Assembly (NCBI GenBank): GCA_016200325.1
Contig: JACQEZ010000010.1
Location: 1-60,676 of the forward strand
Source: Candidatus Manganitrophaceae bacterium
Lineage (GTDB): Bacteria; Nitrospirota; Nitrospiria; SBBL01; Manganitrophaceae
Direction of reading: 5' to 3'
DNA: 60,676 nucleotides
Shown: one piece after another, positions 13,297-54,832 of the stretch
Position numbering within the stretch: the first letter of the stretch is position 1
Layout of the letters: each line of letters starts with the position of its first letter
The notes under the pieces: model-generated
Seen by the model: only the letters and a program-made list of their open reading frames with translations
Database searches by the model: none
Told to the model about the DNA's origin: nothing
Program-made: the position numbers and the translations under genes

Positions 13297-16116
13297 TTAC
13301 CCCGTATTCCGCATTCCGGTTGCGATACAATTGATCGTCAATAAGATGGCGTGAATCAGCTCTTCGCGCTCTTTCTTTCCGAGCTTCTGGGAGCGGAGCT
13401 TTCGAATGAGGTTGACCTGGATGTAGTTGATCGGATCGATGAAAGGGTTGCGCAGCCGGATCGACTGCTGGAGGGTCGGATCGTTGGCGAGGATCTCCTC
13501 GGTTTCGGTGATCTTGCCGACGAGGTCGATCGTCAGCTCGAATTCGGATTGAATCCGTCCGAAGATCCGTTTTCTCAGCTCGGCGTCGCGGACGAGCCCC
13601 GCATAATGATGCGCGATGTGGATGTCGGCTTTGGCGAGGGTCATCTGAATATTGTCGATGAAGTTGTTGAAGAACGGCCAGGCGCGGTACATCTCCTGGA
13701 GGAGCGGGCCGTGCTCCGTCGGGTTTTTGTCGTAAAAGGTCTTGAAGGCGGACCCCACCGGAAACCAACCGCCGACCAGCTGGCGGCTCTGCGTCCAGGA
13801 GAAAATCCACGGGATGGCGCGCATATCTTGCATTGTCTTCCCTCCCCGCCGAAAAGCCGGTCGGGAGCCCATCTTGAGATGGCCGATCTCGGAGATCGGC
13901 GTCGCCTCCTGAAAATAACGATAGAGGTCGGAATCGCCGACCAGCTCTCCATAGAGCCTGTAGGCGATCTGAGAAATTTCCTCAAACGCCGCTTCATACC
14001 GGGCGATCCGCCGCGAGGCGGTCGTCGACGGCTCTTCATTCAAAGTCGCTTTGAGCACCCCGCTGATCAATAATTCCAAATTGTGGGTCGCCGTCCCCTG
14101 GTTGGCATATTTCGAGGAGATCACCTCACCCTGCTCCGTAATTTTAATCCGTCCCATCACCGTGTCGGGGGGTTGGGCGAGGATGGCGCGGTGGGTCGGT
14201 CCCCCGCCGCGGCCGACGCTGCCGCCGCGCCCGTGAAAGAGGGTGAGATGCACCTGATGCGCCTGCGCGACATCTCGGAGGATCTTCTGGGTTTTGTAAA
14301 GCTCCCAGCTCGAGGTCAAGACGCCGGAGTCTTTGCTGCTGTCGGAGTAGCCGAGCATGATCTCCTGCTGTCGTCCGCGGGCCAAGAGATTTTTCTGATA
14401 TGCCTGATTTTTAAAGAGGCCATCCATGATATCGGGGGCCGACCGCAGGTCGTTGATCCGCTCGAAGAGGGGAGCGATGTCGAGCCCGCTCTCATAGCCG
14501 GCATCTTGCGTCGGGCCGCAGAGTCCTGCCTCCTTTGCGAGGAGCTGAACGATCAACACATCGCTCCGTTGCGCGGCAAGGCTGATGATGTAGCTGCCGA
14601 TCGCTTCGGGGTCGATCGCTTCTTTGATCTTACGGATGCTTTTAAAGGTCTCGAGGACCTCCTGGTTTTCGGGAGAGAGGGTCAAGAAGGAAGGGATCAG
14701 GGGGCGAAGGGTGAGGAGCTCTTGGGTCAGGATCTCCACTTTCTTATTCTCATCGGCGGCGGCGTAGTCGGGATAGAGTTGCAGGCGCTCGAAGATCTCC
14801 TGGACGACCTTTCGATGCCGCTCGGCCTCTTGCCGGACGTCGAGGCGAGCGAGGTAAAAATCGAAGACCTGGACCCGCGTTAAAAGGGCATCGACCGCCA
14901 TCTCGGCGGGGCGTTTCCCGGCATCCCCGACGAGGCTTCGCCGGAGGATTTCCAGATCGTCGATGAATTCGGAGGCGGAGCGATAGCCGCGGGCCGGCGC
15001 TTTATCCCTGGAGAGACTAAATCCCATCCGATGATCGATTTCGCTCCGGGTTGCTTCGAGCTTGAGTTTGATGAAGCCGAGCTTCTGCCGATACGGCTCG
15101 TACGGGTTTCGGCCGAGGAGGGGAGCGGCCTGCTCCGGAAAGCGCCCGGCGTCGTCCTGGATCGACATCAATAGCGCTTTGGAGACATCGACGAGGTATT
15201 TCGACTGGCTCAGCTCAATCGTCAGCTGATGGATCGACTCAAGGTAGAGATGAAAGATCAGCTCCTTCTGCCGGAGGACGGTCCACTCGGTGTCTTTGGC
15301 CGTGACGGATGGATTCCCGTCGCGATCGCCGCCGATCCAGGAGCCGAACCGCAAAAACGGCGGGATGATCATGTCGGTCTCTGGATACTGTCCTCGGATA
15401 TGATCCCGAATATCGGCGTAGATCCGAGGGATGATCGGATAAAAGGTCTCCCGAAAATAGAAGAGGCCGTTGCTCACCTCTTCGCGCACCGTCGGGCGGT
15501 CGAGATGGATGTCGCCGGTCTGCCAGAGAAGGGTGATCTGGTTGAGGAGGTCTTGCTTGATCGCTTCGGTCTCCCGCGGTGTCCAGATCGGGCTCTCCCG
15601 CTTGAACATCAAGAGGTAGATCGTCCGGTATTTTTCCAAGATCGTCTGGCGCTTCGCCTCGGTCGGGTGGGCGGTGATCACCGGCATGATCCGCATCTGC
15701 GTCAGCTGCTCGTGCCAGGCGGCCGGATTTTTCCGATTCGCTTCGGCAAAATAATCGTCAAGCGATCCGTCGACCTGCCGGCCCCGCCGCTCCATCTCAC
15801 GCCGCGCCTGCATCCCGAAATTTTCCTCCGCGACGTTCAGGAGATTGAACGAGAGATCGAAAGCGGAGACGAGCTGGGTGCAGGTGGGAAGGTCGAGCCG
15901 GTCGATCATTTGGAGGAGCTTTCGCTCGAGCGCCGGATTGTACCGGTCGCGCAGCTCGCGGCAGATCTTCCGGAATTGCTCGATCAGATTCACGAGCGGC
16001 TCCCCCCCCTGTTCCAGCAGGACCTGGCGGAGGAGCCCGTCGAGATAATCGATATCCCCCTGGAGCGGACGGAGCGGGTGCGGTCGGTTCGATTTGTTTG
16101 AATCTCCTTTGGCCAT
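13297..16116 (-). CDS. ppc: Phosphoenolpyruvate carboxylase
   Basis: This enzyme carboxylates PEP to oxaloacetate, an anaplerotic step. The 939-residue length is typical. Visible signatures are the first active-site block VITAHPTEAKR, GGDRDGNPSVT, the GYSDSSKDSG block, FHGRGGSVGRGGGP, and the conserved C-terminus MRNTG. The start ATG at 16116 (MAKGDSNKS) fits the family. It has no close operon partner: the metallophosphoesterase is convergent downstream and a lipoprotein gene lies upstream on the same strand with its own terminator. Confidence 0.97.
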   Translation of the reverse strand: MAKGDSNKSNRPHPLRPLQGDIDYLDGLLRQVLLEQGGEPLVNLIEQFRKICRELRDRYNPALERKLLQMIDRLDLPTCTQLVSAFDLSFNLLNVAEENFGMQARREMERRGRQVDGSLDDYFAEANRKNPAAWHEQLTQMRIMPVITAHPTEAKRQTILEKYRTIYLLMFKRESPIWTPRETEAIKQDLLNQITLLWQTGDIHLDRPTVREEVSNGLFYFRETFYPIIPRIYADIRDHIRGQYPETDMIIPPFLRFGSWIGGDRDGNPSVTAKDTEWTVLRQKELIFHLYLESIHQLTIELSQSKYLVDVSKALLMSIQDDAGRFPEQAAPLLGRNPYEPYRQKLGFIKLKLEATRSEIDHRMGFSLSRDKAPARGYRSASEFIDDLEILRRSLVGDAGKRPAEMAVDALLTRVQVFDFYLARLDVRQEAERHRKVVQEIFERLQLYPDYAAADENKKVEILTQELLTLRPLIPSFLTLSPENQEVLETFKSIRKIKEAIDPEAIGSYIISLAAQRSDVLIVQLLAKEAGLCGPTQDAGYESGLDIAPLFERINDLRSAPDIMDGLFKNQAYQKNLLARGRQQEIMLGYSDSSKDSGVLTSSWELYKTQKILRDVAQAHQVHLTLFHGRGGSVGRGGGPTHRAILAQPPDTVMGRIKITEQGEVISSKYANQGTATHNLELLISGVLKATLNEEPSTTASRRIARYEAAFEEISQIAYRLYGELVGDSDLYRYFQEATPISEIGHLKMGSRPAFRRGGKTMQDMRAIPWIFSWTQSRQLVGGWFPVGSAFKTFYDKNPTEHGPLLQEMYRAWPFFNNFIDNIQMTLAKADIHIAHHYAGLVRDAELRKRIFGRIQSEFELTIDLVGKITETEEILANDPTLQQSIRLRNPFIDPINYIQVNLIRKLRSQKLGKKEREELIHAILLTINCIATGMRNTG

Positions 16117-19676: not shown

Positions 19677-22001
19677 TTAAAAAGAGGTCGAGGAGATATT
19701 CCCGTGCATTCGGGAGAAGAGCTCCCAATCGAACGGCTTCGCTGCGATGCTATGGAGCGGGATCGCCTCGATTGCGCCTTCGCCCCGGGCGGCGAGAAGA
19801 CAGCCGACGGCCCGCTCCGGACTCTCGATCAGCCGCTGTACCGTCTCATAAGCAAAATGCTGGGCGAGCGCCTTGTCTTGCGGCACCGGCGGCGCCCCGC
19901 GGAGGGTGTGGCCGAGGATCGTCGCCTTCGTCGCCACCGTTAATTGATAGCGGTCCTGTCCCCGCTGGACCGGCGGCCATTGGGCGATCGATTGGGCGAT
20001 GTAGTCGACCAGCCCATGAACCCCGCCGAGCGGATGATGCCGATGCGGCGTCTTCTCCGCAACGACAAAGAGATGGCTCTTGTTCGGCACCCCCATCGAC
20101 CGCTTGAGCGTTCCCAAGATCACCTGATCGATGTAAGCATCGGGGTCGGGGTGCTCGTTCACCAAGATTCCCTCCGCGCGGGCCTGGTGGGCGCAGGAGA
20201 GCGCAAGGTGTCCGGCGCCGGCCCCCATCACCTCGACGAAGAAGATGCTCCCCATCGCGGCACTGGTCGCTTTGAGCGACTGAAGAGAATGGTCGGCGAG
20301 TGCGACGGCGGAGTGGTAGCCGAGAGAGGTCGTCCCGGCGAGGTTGTCGTCGATCGTTCCGGGGAGGCCGACCACCTGGACGCCGAACTTCTCAAAGAGG
20401 GCGCGGGCGCCGCGAAGACTCCCATCTCCGCCGATGACGACGAGCGCGCCGTTTTCCAAATAAGGGGAGAGATTCCGCAGCGCGAGGGCTTGCACCTCTT
20501 CTTCTTTGAAATCTTCAAATCGGCTGCTTCCGATCGGGCTGCTGGAGAATCCGGCCATCCCGCGCATCTCCCGGTCGGTGAACCGCTCAATCCAATTGTT
20601 CGCCAATCCTAAAAAGCCGTGCCGAACGAAATGGACCGTGATCCCTTGACGGTCGCCGGCCGCGCGGAGCTCTTTGAGTGCGGCCCCCGCGCCGGCGAAG
20701 TCGCCGCCGGAGACGAGCGCCACGATCTGCCGGATCTGACGCGGCTTTAGTGTCACCCGTCCGATCCGCTCCCGCTCCACGGTCACCCACGCCTCGCGCG
20801 CCGTCCGCTCCCGCTCGGAGAGACCGACCGCCGTCGAGTAACCCGACAGCCGTCCGTTTTCATAGGCAAGAAGAACGACATTGTCCTGACCTTCTTTATA
20901 TTCGCCGAACTCGGAGAAGGCTTCGTGGAACGGCCGCGGGTCGAGGTAGGTGATCAGCGCCCGCAGCGTCGAGCTGTGGGTGTAGAGGGAGACGACTCCC
21001 CCCTGGTGGGCTTGGGCGATCCGGTGAAATCCGTCGACGACATCGGCATAGAGGTCGAAGAAGGAGTTTCCGCCGGGATAACAATAGAGGGGGTGTTTGA
21101 TCAGGCGCTTGGCTGTCTTCGCGTCGACGCCGAAGGCGCGGGCCGCCTCTTCGACCTCCGCGGTTTTCTCAAGGCCGGTCACCCAACCGAAATCTTGAGA
21201 TTCCAGCGCGGGATCGACCGTCGCCTCGGGGAGGCCGCCGTCGTTCCGGGTCATCGCCGCGGTGACCCGCTCGAACAGTTGTCGGGTATTGGGGCTGCTG
21301 CTGATCTGGTGTCGGAACGTCTTGGGGTCGAGGTAGTTTTCGAGGTGGAGGAAATCGAGCTGCTGGCCGACGGCCCCGACCATTCGGGCGAGTGCCGCCC
21401 CGACCGCATCGGCTTTCGGAAGCCCCCGTCCCGGCTCCAGCGTGTTCGCCAGGCGCTGGCCGACCCGATGGGTCTTGCTCTCGACGCGGGAGACGCCGTG
21501 GCGCATGGTAAAGAGAAGGGCCCGTCCGGTGAGGTCGCGCGGCAGGAGCCAGAAGCGGTCGTCGCCGAGATCGAGGACGATCCGACCTTCCGACAACTGC
21601 GGCGTCAGCTGAGCGCGCGGAACGATCGCCACCGGCCGGCGTCCGAGCGGTTTCTGAATCGAGCGGATCGGACCGTGGAGCAGCGGTGCGAGTCGTCCTT
21701 CGGCCAAGAGCCGGTTCCAGGCGACATAAAAGACCAGCGGGTCGCCGCCGCAGCCGTCGTCGATTAATTTCCGTCGCGCGGCGCGGTAGCTCGCTGCGTT
21801 GTCGAATCCCTGTACGGCCCGATCGACGAAGGCCTGGAGCCGCGGGATCGCCTCGGCGGCCCGGCGGGCACGGTCGGCGGTGGGGGGGGGCGGTTCCGGG
21901 AAAGTCACCCCGTCGGGAGGCGAGCGTCTGGCCATCGCCTCGGCATAGTTCATTAATCCTTCGACGGAAATTAAAGGAAGCCCTGCAGGATTTGCATCCA
22001 T
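19677..22001 (-). CDS. Fusion of histidine-phosphatase-like domain with ATP-type 6-phosphofructokinase
   Basis: The 774-residue protein has an unrecognised N-region (1-160), a histidine-phosphatase (PGM/FBPase-2-like) domain (~160-395) and a PFK-1 domain (~420-760). In the phosphatase part MRHG gives the nucleophile His168, YPGGNSFFDLY (307-317) matches the GESYEDL block of FBPase-2 with Asn312 replacing the catalytic Glu, and THSSTLRAL holds the second His342. In the PFK part are SGGDFAGAGA (431-440), GSSR (Arg494), GGDGS (524-528), PGTIDDN (547-553, Asp551) and VEVMGAGAGH (589-598). GGDGS and PGTI suggest ATP use. The normal TIDND order is DDN and the MGR arginine is Ala. GAGGTGAGAA precedes the start. 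Confidence 0.88.
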   Translation of the reverse strand: MDANPAGLPLISVEGLMNYAEAMARRSPPDGVTFPEPPPPTADRARRAAEAIPRLQAFVDRAVQGFDNAASYRAARRKLIDDGCGGDPLVFYVAWNRLLAEGRLAPLLHGPIRSIQKPLGRRPVAIVPRAQLTPQLSEGRIVLDLGDDRFWLLPRDLTGRALLFTMRHGVSRVESKTHRVGQRLANTLEPGRGLPKADAVGAALARMVGAVGQQLDFLHLENYLDPKTFRHQISSSPNTRQLFERVTAAMTRNDGGLPEATVDPALESQDFGWVTGLEKTAEVEEAARAFGVDAKTAKRLIKHPLYCYPGGNSFFDLYADVVDGFHRIAQAHQGGVVSLYTHSSTLRALITYLDPRPFHEAFSEFGEYKEGQDNVVLLAYENGRLSGYSTAVGLSERERTAREAWVTVERERIGRVTLKPRQIRQIVALVSGGDFAGAGAALKELRAAGDRQGITVHFVRHGFLGLANNWIERFTDREMRGMAGFSSSPIGSSRFEDFKEEEVQALALRNLSPYLENGALVVIGGDGSLRGARALFEKFGVQVVGLPGTIDDNLAGTTSLGYHSAVALADHSLQSLKATSAAMGSIFFVEVMGAGAGHLALSCAHQARAEGILVNEHPDPDAYIDQVILGTLKRSMGVPNKSHLFVVAEKTPHRHHPLGGVHGLVDYIAQSIAQWPPVQRGQDRYQLTVATKATILGHTLRGAPPVPQDKALAQHFAYETVQRLIESPERAVGCLLAARGEGAIEAIPLHSIAAKPFDWELFSRMHGNISSTSF

Positions 22002-22291
22002 TTCTCACCTCGCCTTGGGGGCCTCGTTAATAAAAGGATCCCAGTGAACCCAGTCTATAATATCAATTAGAATGAATCAAGATTTGTATGGAAGTGGGTT
22101 TGGATTATTTTATTTAGTCAACATCGATTGCATGCATCTGTGGGTGGCCCGCCTTCTTACCCTTATTCCGGATGCGCGTGGCGCCCTCGGCTCTAATTGT
22201 TGCGGGACAGGATTTGTTATCCCTCTCGTAGTAAGGAGGGAAGATAGAATCTAGAAGATAGAAGACAGAAGGCGGATCTAAAGAACATTGG

Positions 22292-23030: not shown

Positions 23031-23085
23031 CGGCTGGCGTCTTTCTTCGGTTGAACGGAAAGAGATCGGATCGGTGGGGGGATGG

Positions 23086-24681
23086 ATGGCATATCGCAAG
23101 GACTCGCGGGCCAACATTCTGTTGGTGGATGATCACCCGGAAAATTTGTTGGCGTTGGAAGCGGTGCTGGGGCTGCCGAATTATAATCTGGTTCGGGCCC
23201 GCTCCGGGATGGAGGCGCTCCGCTTTCTGCTCAAGGATGATTTCAGCTTGATCCTACTGGACGTCGCCATGCCGGGCCTCAACGGATTTGAGACCGCCGC
23301 GTTGATTCGGGAGCGGCCGAAGTGCCGGAATATCCCGATTATTTTCATTACGGCGGTCAACCGAACCGAGGCCGATGCGGCAAGAGGGTATGCCGTCGGC
23401 GCGCTCGATTACATCATCAAGCCGTTTGAGCCCGACATGTTGCGGTCGAAAGTCGCAGCGCTGGTCGGGACCCATCCGGTGCGACGGCGGACCGACCGCG
23501 CAGGGAGCGAGTCGAAAGAGCGGGCGAGGGAGCTGGAGACGCTGGAGCGGATCAGCGGGCAGCGCTATAAGAACCTGGCCAACGCCGTTCCCCACATCAT
23601 CTCGATTGCACGCCCGGATGGATCGATCGATTTCTTCAATGAACGGTGGACCACGTATACCGGTTTGACATTTAAAGAGAGCGGAGGGTGGGGATGGAAG
23701 AAAGCGATCTGTCCGGACGATCTCGCCCCTTTCCTCGACGGCTGGAAAACGGCGGTGGAGAGCCGGGCGAATTATCAGACGGAGTGTCGTCTCCGGCAGC
23801 AGGGGGGGGCGTACCGGTGGCATCTGCTCATGGCCCTTCCGGAGAAAGACGAGAAGGGGAATGTGATGGCCTGGCTTTGGACCGCAACCGATATCGATGA
23901 TCAGAAGAGATTGGAAGGGTCGTTGCGAAGCTTGGTGGCCGAGCTGGAGGAGAAGAAGAGCGAAGCGGAGGCGGCCAATCGGGTTAAATCGCGCTTTGTC
24001 TCGAATGTGTCTCATGAGCTTCGGACCCCCTTGAATGCGATCCTCGGCTACACCGCCTTGCTGCTCGACCAGCACTTCGGCGAGGTCAGCCCGCAGCAGG
24101 AGGAGGTGCTCGTCTCACTGAGGCGGAACGCCCGCGATCTGACCAATTTAATAGAAAATTTACTCGACCTCTCTCGGATCGAAGCGGGGAAAATCGAAAT
24201 TCGGTCCGAGCCGGCCGATCTTCAGCAGATTATCTCGGAGGTCTTTGAAGGCCTCAAGCATATGCTCTCGCAAAAAAAGGTTGTCGTCCGATGGAAAATC
24301 GACTCGGGACTTCCGATCATCCGAAGCGATCCGTTCCGGATTCGCCAGATCCTCTCCAACCTTCTTTCCAACGCCTTCAAGTTTACGGAGAAGGGCTCGG
24401 TCACCTTCTCCGCCGAGGGGACAGCCGCTCCCCGGGGAATTCTGATCTCGGTGAAGGACAGCGGGATCGGCATGCCGAAAGAGGCCCTTCCGACCCTCTT
24501 TGAGCCGTTCAAGCGGGTCGCCCGCCGCGGCGGTTTTCACGCCGACGGGGTCGGCATCGGTTTGACGATCGTGAAGGAGTCGATCGAGCTGCTCGGAGGA
24601 ACGATCAAGGTTCAGAGTCAACAGGGGAAGGGGACGACCTTCACCCTCTTCTTGCCCGATCGGACTGAAAAGGGCAATTGA
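23086..24681 (+). CDS. Response-regulator/PAS/histidine-kinase hybrid
   Basis: This soluble two-component protein of 531 residues has an N-terminal receiver (NILLVDDHPENLLALE, phospho-acceptor Asp in LILLDVAMPG, Lys in YIIKPF), a linker, a PAS domain (~165-290, DGSIDFFNERWTTYTG, then a PAC-like YRWHLLMALPEKDEKGN), and HisKA (FVSNVSHELRTPLNAILGY) plus HATPase (NLLSNAFKFTEKG, DSGIGM, GVGIGLTIVKE). It has no membrane helix, so it senses a cytoplasmic signal and is itself controlled by phosphorylation of the receiver. The ATG at 23086 has GGGGGGA upstream; a GTG at 23074 is possible. No cognate regulator adjoins it. Confidence 0.9.
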   Translation: MAYRKDSRANILLVDDHPENLLALEAVLGLPNYNLVRARSGMEALRFLLKDDFSLILLDVAMPGLNGFETAALIRERPKCRNIPIIFITAVNRTEADAARGYAVGALDYIIKPFEPDMLRSKVAALVGTHPVRRRTDRAGSESKERARELETLERISGQRYKNLANAVPHIISIARPDGSIDFFNERWTTYTGLTFKESGGWGWKKAICPDDLAPFLDGWKTAVESRANYQTECRLRQQGGAYRWHLLMALPEKDEKGNVMAWLWTATDIDDQKRLEGSLRSLVAELEEKKSEAEAANRVKSRFVSNVSHELRTPLNAILGYTALLLDQHFGEVSPQQEEVLVSLRRNARDLTNLIENLLDLSRIEAGKIEIRSEPADLQQIISEVFEGLKHMLSQKKVVVRWKIDSGLPIIRSDPFRIRQILSNLLSNAFKFTEKGSVTFSAEGTAAPRGILISVKDSGIGMPKEALPTLFEPFKRVARRGGFHADGVGIGLTIVKESIELLGGTIKVQSQQGKGTTFTLFLPDRTEKGN

Positions 24682-34613: not shown

Positions 34614-36032
34614 TTGGATCATCCGTTTTGGATCGGGGGGAAGTGGCGGCGCTCGGCGGAGAAGGTCGAGGTCATCAATCCTTACGACGGTCGGCCGGTC
34701 GGGACGACCTACGCCGCCTCGGCGGAGGATGTTGAGGCGGCGCTGTCGGCGGCGGCGGCCGCTTTTCAGGAGATGCGGCGGATGCCGGCCTTTCGGCGGG
34801 GGGAGATCCTCTATCAGATTTCCGAAGGGCTGAAGGGGCGGCGGGAGGAGGTTGCTCGGACGATCACGCTGGAGTCGGGCAAGCCGATCGCCGATGCGCG
34901 CGGCGAGGTGGGCCGCGCGATCAATACTTTCCAGATCGCCTCGGAAGAGGCGAAGCGGATTGAGGGAGAGGTCATCCCGCTCGATCTGATGCCGGGGTCG
35001 GAGGGACGGATGGGGATCACGCGGCGATTTCCGATCGGTCCGATCGTCGGGATCGCGCCGTTTAACTTCCCGTTGAATCTCGTTGCCCACAAGGTGGCGC
35101 CGGCGCTGGCCGCCGGGAACTCGATTATTTTAAAACCGGCGCCGAAGACGCCGCTGACGGCGCTGTTGCTGGCCGAGATCATCGCCTCGGTCGGTATTCC
35201 CGACGGGGCGGTCAATGTCTTTCTCTGCGCGAATGCATTGGCGGAGAAGATGATCCTCGATCCGCGAATCAAGATGCTCAGCTTCACCGGCAGCGCCCCG
35301 GTCGGATGGCATTTGAAAGAGAGCGCGAACAAGAAGCGGGTCGTGCTCGAGCTGGGTGGAAACGCCGGGGTGATCATTCAGCCCGATGCCGATCTGGAAT
35401 ATGCGGTCAAGCGCTGCGCGGTCGGCGGCTTCTCGTATGCCGGACAGGTCTGCATCTCGGTCCAGCGGATTTATGCGCAGGAGGCGATCTATGACCGCTT
35501 CTCCAGCGAGCTCGTCCGGCAGGTGAAATCGCTTCAGGTCGGCGACCCGCTCGATGAAAAAACGGCGATGGGGCCGATGGTCGACCTCAAGGCGGCGGAG
35601 CGGGTGGAGAAATGGATTCAAGAGGCGGTCGCGCAGGGAGCGAAGCTCCTCACCGGCGGGACGCGGTCGGGGACGTTGATCGCGCCAACGGTGCTTACCG
35701 AGACGACCCCCGAGATGCAGGTGAACTGTCAGGAGGTTTTTGCACCGATCGTCACCCTCACCCCCTATCGAACGCTGGACGAAGCAATCGCGGCGGTGAA
35801 CCGTTCTTCCTACGGCCTGCAGGCCGGCCTCTTTGCGCAGGACATTCGGGAGATCTTCCGAGCCTTTGAAGAGATCGAAGTCGGCGGGCTGATCGTCAAT
35901 GATGTCCCGACCTACCGGGTCGACCACATGCCGTACGGCGGAATCAAAGAGTCCGGGGTCGGTCGGGAAGGGGTCCGATATGCCATGGAAGACATGACCG
36001 AACTGAAGTTCATGGCGCTCCATTTAAAATGA
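34614..36032 (+). CDS. Aldehyde dehydrogenase family protein (NAD(P)-dependent)
   Basis: The 472-residue enzyme oxidises an aldehyde to its acid. Key blocks are VVxPFNFPLNLVAHK-like (GIAPFNFPLNLVAHKVAPAL), FTGSAPVGWHLK, LELGGNAGVI with the general-base Glu, and the nucleophile in YAGQVCISVQR. It starts with TTG, supported by AGGAGGG 7 bases upstream. Its group includes lactaldehyde, non-phosphorylating glyceraldehyde-3-phosphate and related dehydrogenases. The pyruvate kinase gene 43 bases downstream makes a glycolytic substrate plausible but not shown. Confidence 0.92.
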   Translation: MDHPFWIGGKWRRSAEKVEVINPYDGRPVGTTYAASAEDVEAALSAAAAAFQEMRRMPAFRRGEILYQISEGLKGRREEVARTITLESGKPIADARGEVGRAINTFQIASEEAKRIEGEVIPLDLMPGSEGRMGITRRFPIGPIVGIAPFNFPLNLVAHKVAPALAAGNSIILKPAPKTPLTALLLAEIIASVGIPDGAVNVFLCANALAEKMILDPRIKMLSFTGSAPVGWHLKESANKKRVVLELGGNAGVIIQPDADLEYAVKRCAVGGFSYAGQVCISVQRIYAQEAIYDRFSSELVRQVKSLQVGDPLDEKTAMGPMVDLKAAERVEKWIQEAVAQGAKLLTGGTRSGTLIAPTVLTETTPEMQVNCQEVFAPIVTLTPYRTLDEAIAAVNRSSYGLQAGLFAQDIREIFRAFEEIEVGGLIVNDVPTYRVDHMPYGGIKESGVGREGVRYAMEDMTELKFMALHLK

Positions 36033-36075: not shown

Positions 36076-37494
<1,419 letters not shown>

Positions 37495-53556: not shown

Positions 53557-54273
53557 TTATTCGATGAATGTAATCTGACCCACATATTTCGGGAGATCTG
53601 CCCTCAATCGGGCGGCGTATGATTCCGGTAGGATAATCCGCCGGATATGGTCGACGGTAAACTGGAGATTGCCAAGAATGCGCCACTCCCGCTCCATATA
53701 AAAGTTCTCGGGGGCGTCGTCCGGTTTGGACTCGTCAAAAAATTTCAGGAAGCTGAAAATATGGTAGTCGAGAAATTCCTTGATCGAGAGGAGCTGCTTC
53801 AGATGATGGGCGTCCTCCGATTTTTCTCCAGACGCCTGAAGCTCTTTGAAGAGAAGATGGTATTCATGGACGACGCGGTCGAAGCGCTCGCCGAGGGTGA
53901 TCCGCTGTGTTCGTCCCTTGTCGCGTGAAGAGGCATTCTTACAGATATAAAAGACCGGATTGGCCCCCTGCTCGACCAGAAAAGATTTTAGGAAAGAGAG
54001 GCCGAACCGGCTGTATTTTCGGATGTGGATATCGAGCTCGCCGATCGGGATATCGGAGAAGGAGATGATCTGCGGGAAATACATCTCATTTTCGCTCATT
54101 CGTGCATTGGTGTTGACGGTGAGCTGGCCGGAGATGGCGGGGTTATGCGGTGCGTGGGTCAGCCAGCCGGAGGCGATGATCTCGATCAGGAGCTGGTACT
54201 GATCGGCTTCAGGGAGGTTCCTCCCGACGAAGTGGGTCATTTCACTTGAGACGTAACGTTGTTGCGCGGACAT
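53557..54273 (-). CDS. AbiGi-family (abortive infection antitoxin-type) protein
   Basis: I chose the ATG at 54273 because GAGGAAAG lies just upstream; the long upstream frame lacks support. The 238-residue protein carries the features of the family annotated as abortive infection system antitoxin AbiGi: SSEMTHFVGRNLP, the His/Asn region WLTHAPHNPAISG, FSDIPIGELDIHIRKYSRFGLSF, ANPVFYICKNAS and, near the end, EREWRILGNLQF and ARLRADLPKYVGQITF. No AbiGii-like toxin gene adjoins it, so the link to phage defence rests on family naming alone. It could be a solitary member with another role. Confidence 0.65.
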   Translation of the reverse strand: MSAQQRYVSSEMTHFVGRNLPEADQYQLLIEIIASGWLTHAPHNPAISGQLTVNTNARMSENEMYFPQIISFSDIPIGELDIHIRKYSRFGLSFLKSFLVEQGANPVFYICKNASSRDKGRTQRITLGERFDRVVHEYHLLFKELQASGEKSEDAHHLKQLLSIKEFLDYHIFSFLKFFDESKPDDAPENFYMEREWRILGNLQFTVDHIRRIILPESYAARLRADLPKYVGQITFIE

Positions 54274-54445
54274 CGGTCTTTCCTCTCGTCGCCGGGAACG
54301 AGGGCCCTCCTTTCTGCTAATCTTATCTAAAATATATCCAAAATAACCTGGGTGCGCAAGAATCGGACAGACGGCGCTCCTATTGACAGCGGCCTCCTTC
54401 TCATTGTTCAATGGCGCGGTCAAAGTTGCGGAGGAGAACGAGGTG

Positions 54446-54832
54446 ATGAAACGATTGATGGTTGGAGCCGTTTTTTTTTTATTGTCGATCCGGCCGGGGT
54501 CGGCCAAGACATTGGCGTTGAGCGGCATTCCCGATATTCAGACGAAGAGTACGATGGATGAGACGATCCGCATCGAAGTCGACAGCGTGAAGAAAAAGGG
54601 GCTTCGGGTGGTGATCGTCAAAGAAGGAGATCAGTATTATTGGGAGACGCGGGATCGGAGAAAGCTGACCCGAACGACGCAAGGGAACATGATCCTCTTC
54701 CTCGACCCGACCGGTGGGGGCTATATCAAGGTGGCGCCGACCCCCGACGGGAAGGCCATTTATATGGAGCACCTGAGCCAGGGGCTGGAGACGTTTACGT
54801 ATTGGGGGGTGGTGGAGCATTTGGAGCCCTAG
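54446..54832 (+). CDS. Small secreted protein, unknown function
   Basis: The ATG at 54446 follows GAGGAGAACGAGGTG, and the product then starts with a signal peptide (MKRLMVGAVFFLLSI, ending near GSAK). The 128 residues include a beta-rich core (IRIEVDSVKKKGLRVVIVKE, YYWETRDRRKLTRTT, GGGYIKVAPTPDGKAIYMEH). No family is recognised. It lies divergent from the AbiGi-family gene and shortly before DUF169. Confidence 0.7.
   Translation: MKRLMVGAVFFLLSIRPGSAKTLALSGIPDIQTKSTMDETIRIEVDSVKKKGLRVVIVKEGDQYYWETRDRRKLTRTTQGNMILFLDPTGGGYIKVAPTPDGKAIYMEHLSQGLETFTYWGVVEHLEP

Follow-up and report, generated by a model that had tools for sequence, protein, structure and literature searches.

A protein joining a histidine-phosphatase fold to a phosphofructokinase-1 fold, with fixed active-site changes, in one class of Nitrospirota

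The window analyzed here, a stretch of 60,676 nucleotides from a Candidatus Manganitrophaceae bacterium, contains on its minus strand a single open reading frame of 774 codons (positions 19677 to 22001), in front of which a Shine-Dalgarno sequence, AGGTGAG, was read directly at positions 22004 to 22010 of the same strand. The 774-residue product (P0001) comprises an N-terminal, mostly helical domain of no known family (residues 1 to 157; positions 21531 to 22001), a histidine-phosphatase domain (residues 158 to 391; positions 20829 to 21530), and a domain with the phosphofructokinase-1 (PFK-1) fold (residues 424 to 752; positions 19746 to 20732), all on the minus strand. The original prediction had placed a histidine phosphatase and a PFK-1 in one protein. 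In a Pfam search, the PFK family (PF00365) matched residues 426 to 722 (E = 3.6e-54; 184.5 bits, passing the cutoff of 30.9) and His_Phos_1 matched residues 234 to 360 (E = 2.4e-7, above the cutoff), and comparisons of structure models agreed with both assignments. The motifs that had been quoted were likewise present, namely, MRHG (residues 166 to 169), YPGGNSF (residues 308 to 314, including Asn312), THSST (residues 341 to 345), IDDN, and MGA. A full-length AlphaFold model had a pLDDT of 76.9 and a pTM of 0.54, and the relative placement of the domains in it is not trustworthy; a model of residues 1 to 416 (mean pLDDT of 83.6; pTM of 0.84) showed helices at the N terminus followed by a fold of the histidine-phosphatase type. 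Since the same architecture was found in 75 genomes, an assembly or frameshift artifact was ruled out as the source of the fusion. There is no doubt about the existence of the fusion or about the alteration of its sites.

Pyruvate kinase adjoins the fusion gene in 55 of 66 loci (some of them from one and the same species), with gaps of 89 to 738 bp and in three orientations; divergent pairs are the most numerous, in many loci pyruvate kinase follows downstream in the same direction, and two pairs are convergent. The neighbor has been kept although the orientation has changed, which suggests that the two genes are linked in function. In the window, the pyruvate kinase gene (positions 36076 to 37494, plus strand) is also divergent from the fusion gene and lies 14 kb from it, and in three other genomes of the genus the distance is 18 to 20 kb. 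A gene of the aldehyde dehydrogenase family (positions 34614 to 36032, plus strand) ends 43 bp before pyruvate kinase; its NCBIfam matches, the lactaldehyde and archaeal nonphosphorylating GAPDH models among them, were all below the cutoffs. On the side opposite pyruvate kinase, a phosphoenolpyruvate carboxylase gene (positions 13297 to 16116, minus strand) is found 3.6 kb downstream of the fusion. The window also encodes a response regulator, PAS domain, and histidine kinase in one protein (positions 23074 to 24681), divergent from the fusion and about 1 kb off, and a match to the AbiGi abortive-infection antitoxin family (positions 53557 to 54528). In many Nitrospira loci (as at L005:4726-5744), the fusion gene is flanked on its opposite side by a barnase-like ribonuclease (PF00545)/barstar pair, after which come genes for a YidB-like protein and a class III aminotransferase.

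Of 296 Nitrospirota genomes sampled, 75 encode full-length orthologues (incomplete or in two pieces in two cases). All 75 belong to the window's own class, Candidatus Nitrospira defluvii among them, and the more distant Nitrospirota in the sample had none. A pattern scan of 84,980 species genomes recovered full-length relatives only from Nitrospirota, although such a scan does not exclude distant ones, and residues 1 to 416 had no relatives among viral contigs and plasmids. Orthologues were 65 to 73% identical across families and 82 to 83% identical within the genus, with one further relative at 57%. In a PFK tree, the fusions formed one clade on a very long branch, without a firm sister group, and 39% of the columns were invariant in the PFK domain, above the values for the other domains of the fusion. 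The family thus appears, from these sequences, to have changed greatly at its origin and to have been strongly conserved thereafter. No paper describing the fusion was found among open-licence papers, and a 2025 review of the PFK superfamily does not mention the combination of a histidine phosphatase with a PFK; both folds are already known, and it is their combination that appears to be new. In one genome of the window's genus (G314:C1:3677953-3680243), the coding sequence of the fusion is interrupted near residue 440 and continues in a second, overlapping frame, so that either a frameshift error has occurred or the two halves have been separated.

The N-terminal region was modeled with helices at residues 13 to 25, 44 to 62, 69 to 83, and 88 to 100 (pLDDT of about 90). 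It gave no Pfam match beyond chance when 25 members were searched and no match to PDB sequences, and it was seen only within the fusion among 246 Nitrospirota genomes searched; it is a novel domain. The original prediction had not included this domain, nor the losses at Arg62, Asn17, Arg162, and Arg243 that are described below, the second PFK of the genome, or the linkage to pyruvate kinase.

Sequence profiles of the phosphatase half gave only weak matches to the PDB, and structure comparison was needed to place it. The model of residues 159 to 391 matched histidine phosphatases with a VIA-align Z score of 16.6 and an rmsd of 2.9, and its neighbors by Foldseek and VIA-align were the branch-1 enzymes PhoE (1h2e/1ebb), dPGM, and TIGAR (Z of about 15 to 16.6), with PFKFB3 lower in the list. 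Along with the fold, the RHG motif and the second histidine are common to the fusion and these enzymes, Arg167, His168, Gly169, Ser171, and His342 being invariant in an alignment of 59 family members. In contrast, the position of the catalytic acid, which we take to be the glutamate of LNERHYG/LNEIDAG (dPGM Glu89; FBPase-2 Glu327), is occupied by Ser268, a serine in 58 of the 59 members. The lost acid had previously been assigned to Asn312; that residue (His or Asn in the family) instead replaces the glutamate of the GES motif, which is indeed lost as well. The position of dPGM Asn17 is Glu or Asp (residue 174). The profile alignment has gaps around the position of Arg62, which was therefore assigned by motif and secondary structure to residue 240; Arg is found there in the window and in 33 of 59 members, and the others have Glu, Lys, Thr, or Ser. 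An acidic residue 267 (Glu or Asp) and Asp270, both invariant, flank the lost acid and could be stand-ins for it, but judging from the residues of this pocket, phosphatase activity is doubtful. The phosphatase half is unlikely to be the phosphoglycerate mutase of the cell, since the genome encodes its own 526-residue candidate of the metalloenzyme type and the pocket of the fusion is altered. It is also unlikely to supply a missing fructose bisphosphatase (FBPase); a class I FBPase was present in 48 of 50 genomes, compared to none found of the GlpX type, and the fusion is therefore not needed in that role.

The PFK domain did not reach the NCBI cutoffs for ATP-dependent PFK (184.6 bits versus 253, and 167.6 versus 371.35 for the TIGR02482 equivalog), yet the model of the fusion matched bacterial PFK structures with a Foldseek E value of 4e-19, the TM score against E. 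coli PfkA (1pfk/2pfk) being 0.83 to 0.84 by target. Residues are compared below in the literature numbering of E. coli PfkA, which is the count from Met-1 minus one; the reference sequence agrees with the PDB alignment. In all 25 members so aligned, Gly11, Arg72, Phe76, Asp103, Gly104, Ser105, Gly108, Gly124 (the ATP-type residue), Asp127, Glu222, His249, and Arg252 were kept, and the ATP site, with Asp103 and the base Asp127 (Asp551 in the window), was unchanged in 59 of 59 members; position 125 is Thr or Ser. In contrast to E. coli PfkA, Asp129 is replaced by Asn (Asn553), Arg171 by Ala (Ala594), Arg243 by Lys (Lys692), and Arg162 by Ser or, in a few members, Thr (Ser585), each without exception in the 59 members. 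The effector-site residues Arg21, Arg25, Arg54, Arg154, Arg211, and Lys213 have also been replaced, and the fusion carries about 420 additional N-terminal residues. The alanine in place of the usual arginine of MGR, which had been pointed out in the original prediction, is thus fixed in the family, and the changes at Arg162 and Arg243, which had gone unremarked, are equally fixed. The reading of DDN for DND stands only in part; IDDN is present in the window but is a lineage variant, with IDNN in 51 of 59 members and only the final Asn, at the Asp129 position, invariant.

From structures and mutants of the E. coli and Geobacillus enzymes, Asp129, Arg162, Arg171, and Arg243 of E. coli PFK are known to function in fructose-6-phosphate (F6P) binding or phosphoryl transfer. 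For Asp127 and Arg162, the roles are given in PMC12203962. By its residues, the site in the fusion is ATP-type with a rebuilt acceptor pocket, and since the four changes fall on F6P or phosphoryl-transfer residues, the protein may have little or no activity as an F6P kinase. Nevertheless, we lean toward an active PFK half on two grounds: the ATP site and the base have been preserved, and 11 genomes contain the fusion without any other PFK. Altered activity of both halves, as had been proposed, is likely, since both active sites have changed and the changes are fixed across the family.

Within the window's genome, a second PFK (L079) has its residues intact and lies beside a glycogen-synthase-like gene, so named by eye from its sequence; Nitrospira-type genomes instead contain a PFK of 430 residues whose GGDDT and PKTIDND motifs follow the pattern of PPi-dependent enzymes. 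Among 106 genomes of the class with completeness of at least 90%, counted by hand, 57 had both the fusion and another PFK, 11 had the fusion only, 20 had another PFK only, and 18 had neither. The association between the two was positive across these genomes, but they are akin to one another, and its p value is therefore unreliable. The fusion is dispensable, given the 20 genomes that possess a PFK without it and the 18 that possess neither. Pyruvate kinase was encoded by 23 of the 24 fusion carriers surveyed versus 18 of 26 other genomes, while the presence of glycogen phosphorylase did not separate carriers from others. Stand-alone PFKs of several families in the class (L109, L110, and L112) have GGNGS or GGEGS for GGDGS, and some have MGH in place of MGR; active-site drift is therefore common in the class.

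The parallel drawn at the outset with PFK-2/FBPase-2 (PFKFB; 2axn) holds insofar as a sugar-phosphate kinase is paired with a branch-1 histidine phosphatase and the order is reversed, the Pfam matches placing the PFK-1 domain after the phosphatase. It is an analogy only, however, since the kinase has the PFK-1 rather than the P-loop fold (no Pfam match to a P-loop 6PF2K domain was found ahead of the phosphatase) and FBPase-2 is not the closest structural match. The fusion differs from PFK-2/FBPase-2 also in the loss of the phosphatase acid and second arginine. Yeast PFK, which has an extra glyoxalase I-like N-terminal domain, resembles the fusion in that a PFK is preceded by a domain unrelated to it, which probably serves regulation, but differs in the nature of that domain and in being eukaryotic and duplicated (PMC12203962).

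Our preferred reading, held tentatively, is that the fusion is a class-specific protein of the glycolysis node in which an ATP-binding, PFK-derived kinase domain with a remodeled sugar-phosphate site is joined to a phosphatase-like, ligand-sensing domain. The kinase domain would phosphorylate F6P or a close sugar phosphate by means of a remodeled phosphate clamp; such an activity is the most likely one because the Mg-ATP-binding residues and the general base are retained, and an E. coli-type ADP/PEP effector site would be absent. The phosphatase domain, with its nucleophile pocket kept and its usual acid and second arginine lost, would bind a phosphorylated metabolite and set the activity of the kinase domain; it is in this form that we infer the sensor role first suggested for it. 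Expressed near or together with pyruvate kinase, the fusion would be a switch for glycolytic direction in autotrophs running mainly gluconeogenesis. A role in the control of glycolysis is supported by gene linkage: because the gene usually lies beside that of pyruvate kinase, the fusion probably takes part in the regulation of sugar breakdown, in bacteria whose sugar is mostly made from CO2.

In animal PFK, the C-terminal half has been turned into a regulatory site, and by analogy the PFK fold of the fusion might be a noncatalytic sensor of ATP and sugar phosphate, with the separate PFK or pyruvate kinase, for example, as the protein that it acts upon. We consider this rather unlikely, although the fixed replacement of four catalytic or F6P residues, the loss of Asp129 and Arg171 also in the regulatory C-terminal half of muscle PFK (SNN and MGG), the very long branch ahead of the family's radiation, and the presence of another PFK in most fusion-bearing genomes (57 of 68) would all be consistent with it. 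Unlike in the animal C-terminal half, the base Asp127, the Mg residue Asp103, and the whole ATP site are invariant, and 11 genomes have the fusion as their sole PFK. Less probable still is that the domain phosphorylates some other sugar phosphate, such as sedoheptulose 7-phosphate, the changes at Arg162 and Arg243 having opened the 6-phosphate clamp. In favor of this, the changes are concentrated in the acceptor site, the altered residues are invariant, and the ATP site is kept; against it, the pyruvate kinase linkage indicates a place in glycolysis itself, and nothing in the genomes hinted at any one alternative substrate. Least probable is a true bifunctional kinase and phosphatase resembling PFK-2/FBPase-2 but working with fructose-1,6-bisphosphate, both halves being active, for which the invariant Arg167, His168, and His342 and the acidic residues 267 and 270 beside the lost acid might speak but against which stand the serine at the Glu89 position, the substitutions at the Arg62 and Asn17 positions, and the dedicated class I FBPase.

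Nitrospira and its relatives are major nitrite oxidizers that fix CO2 by the reductive tricarboxylic acid cycle and hold stores of glycogen. In such nitrifying autotrophs, the fusion might, although this more far-reaching proposal is possible rather than probable, be an undescribed device for the control of carbon metabolism that evolved independently of PFK-2/FBPase-2. A single chain would unite a sensor of the phosphatase fold with an effector of the PFK fold and would choose between breaking down glycogen and gluconeogenesis, perhaps using a sugar phosphate as a novel substrate or signal. If the fusion is a control protein, PFK-type kinases and histidine phosphatases would have been paired a second time, independently, and the way in which these autotrophs gate glycolysis would be explained. 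Glycolysis has been stated to be complete in the Nitrospira group (PMC8115632, PMC7078480). In 11 genomes, the altered fusion was the sole PFK homologue found, and there the claim would rest on an enzyme without four canonical residues; should the fusion be something other than a PFK, the pathways reconstructed for those 11 genomes would have to be revised.
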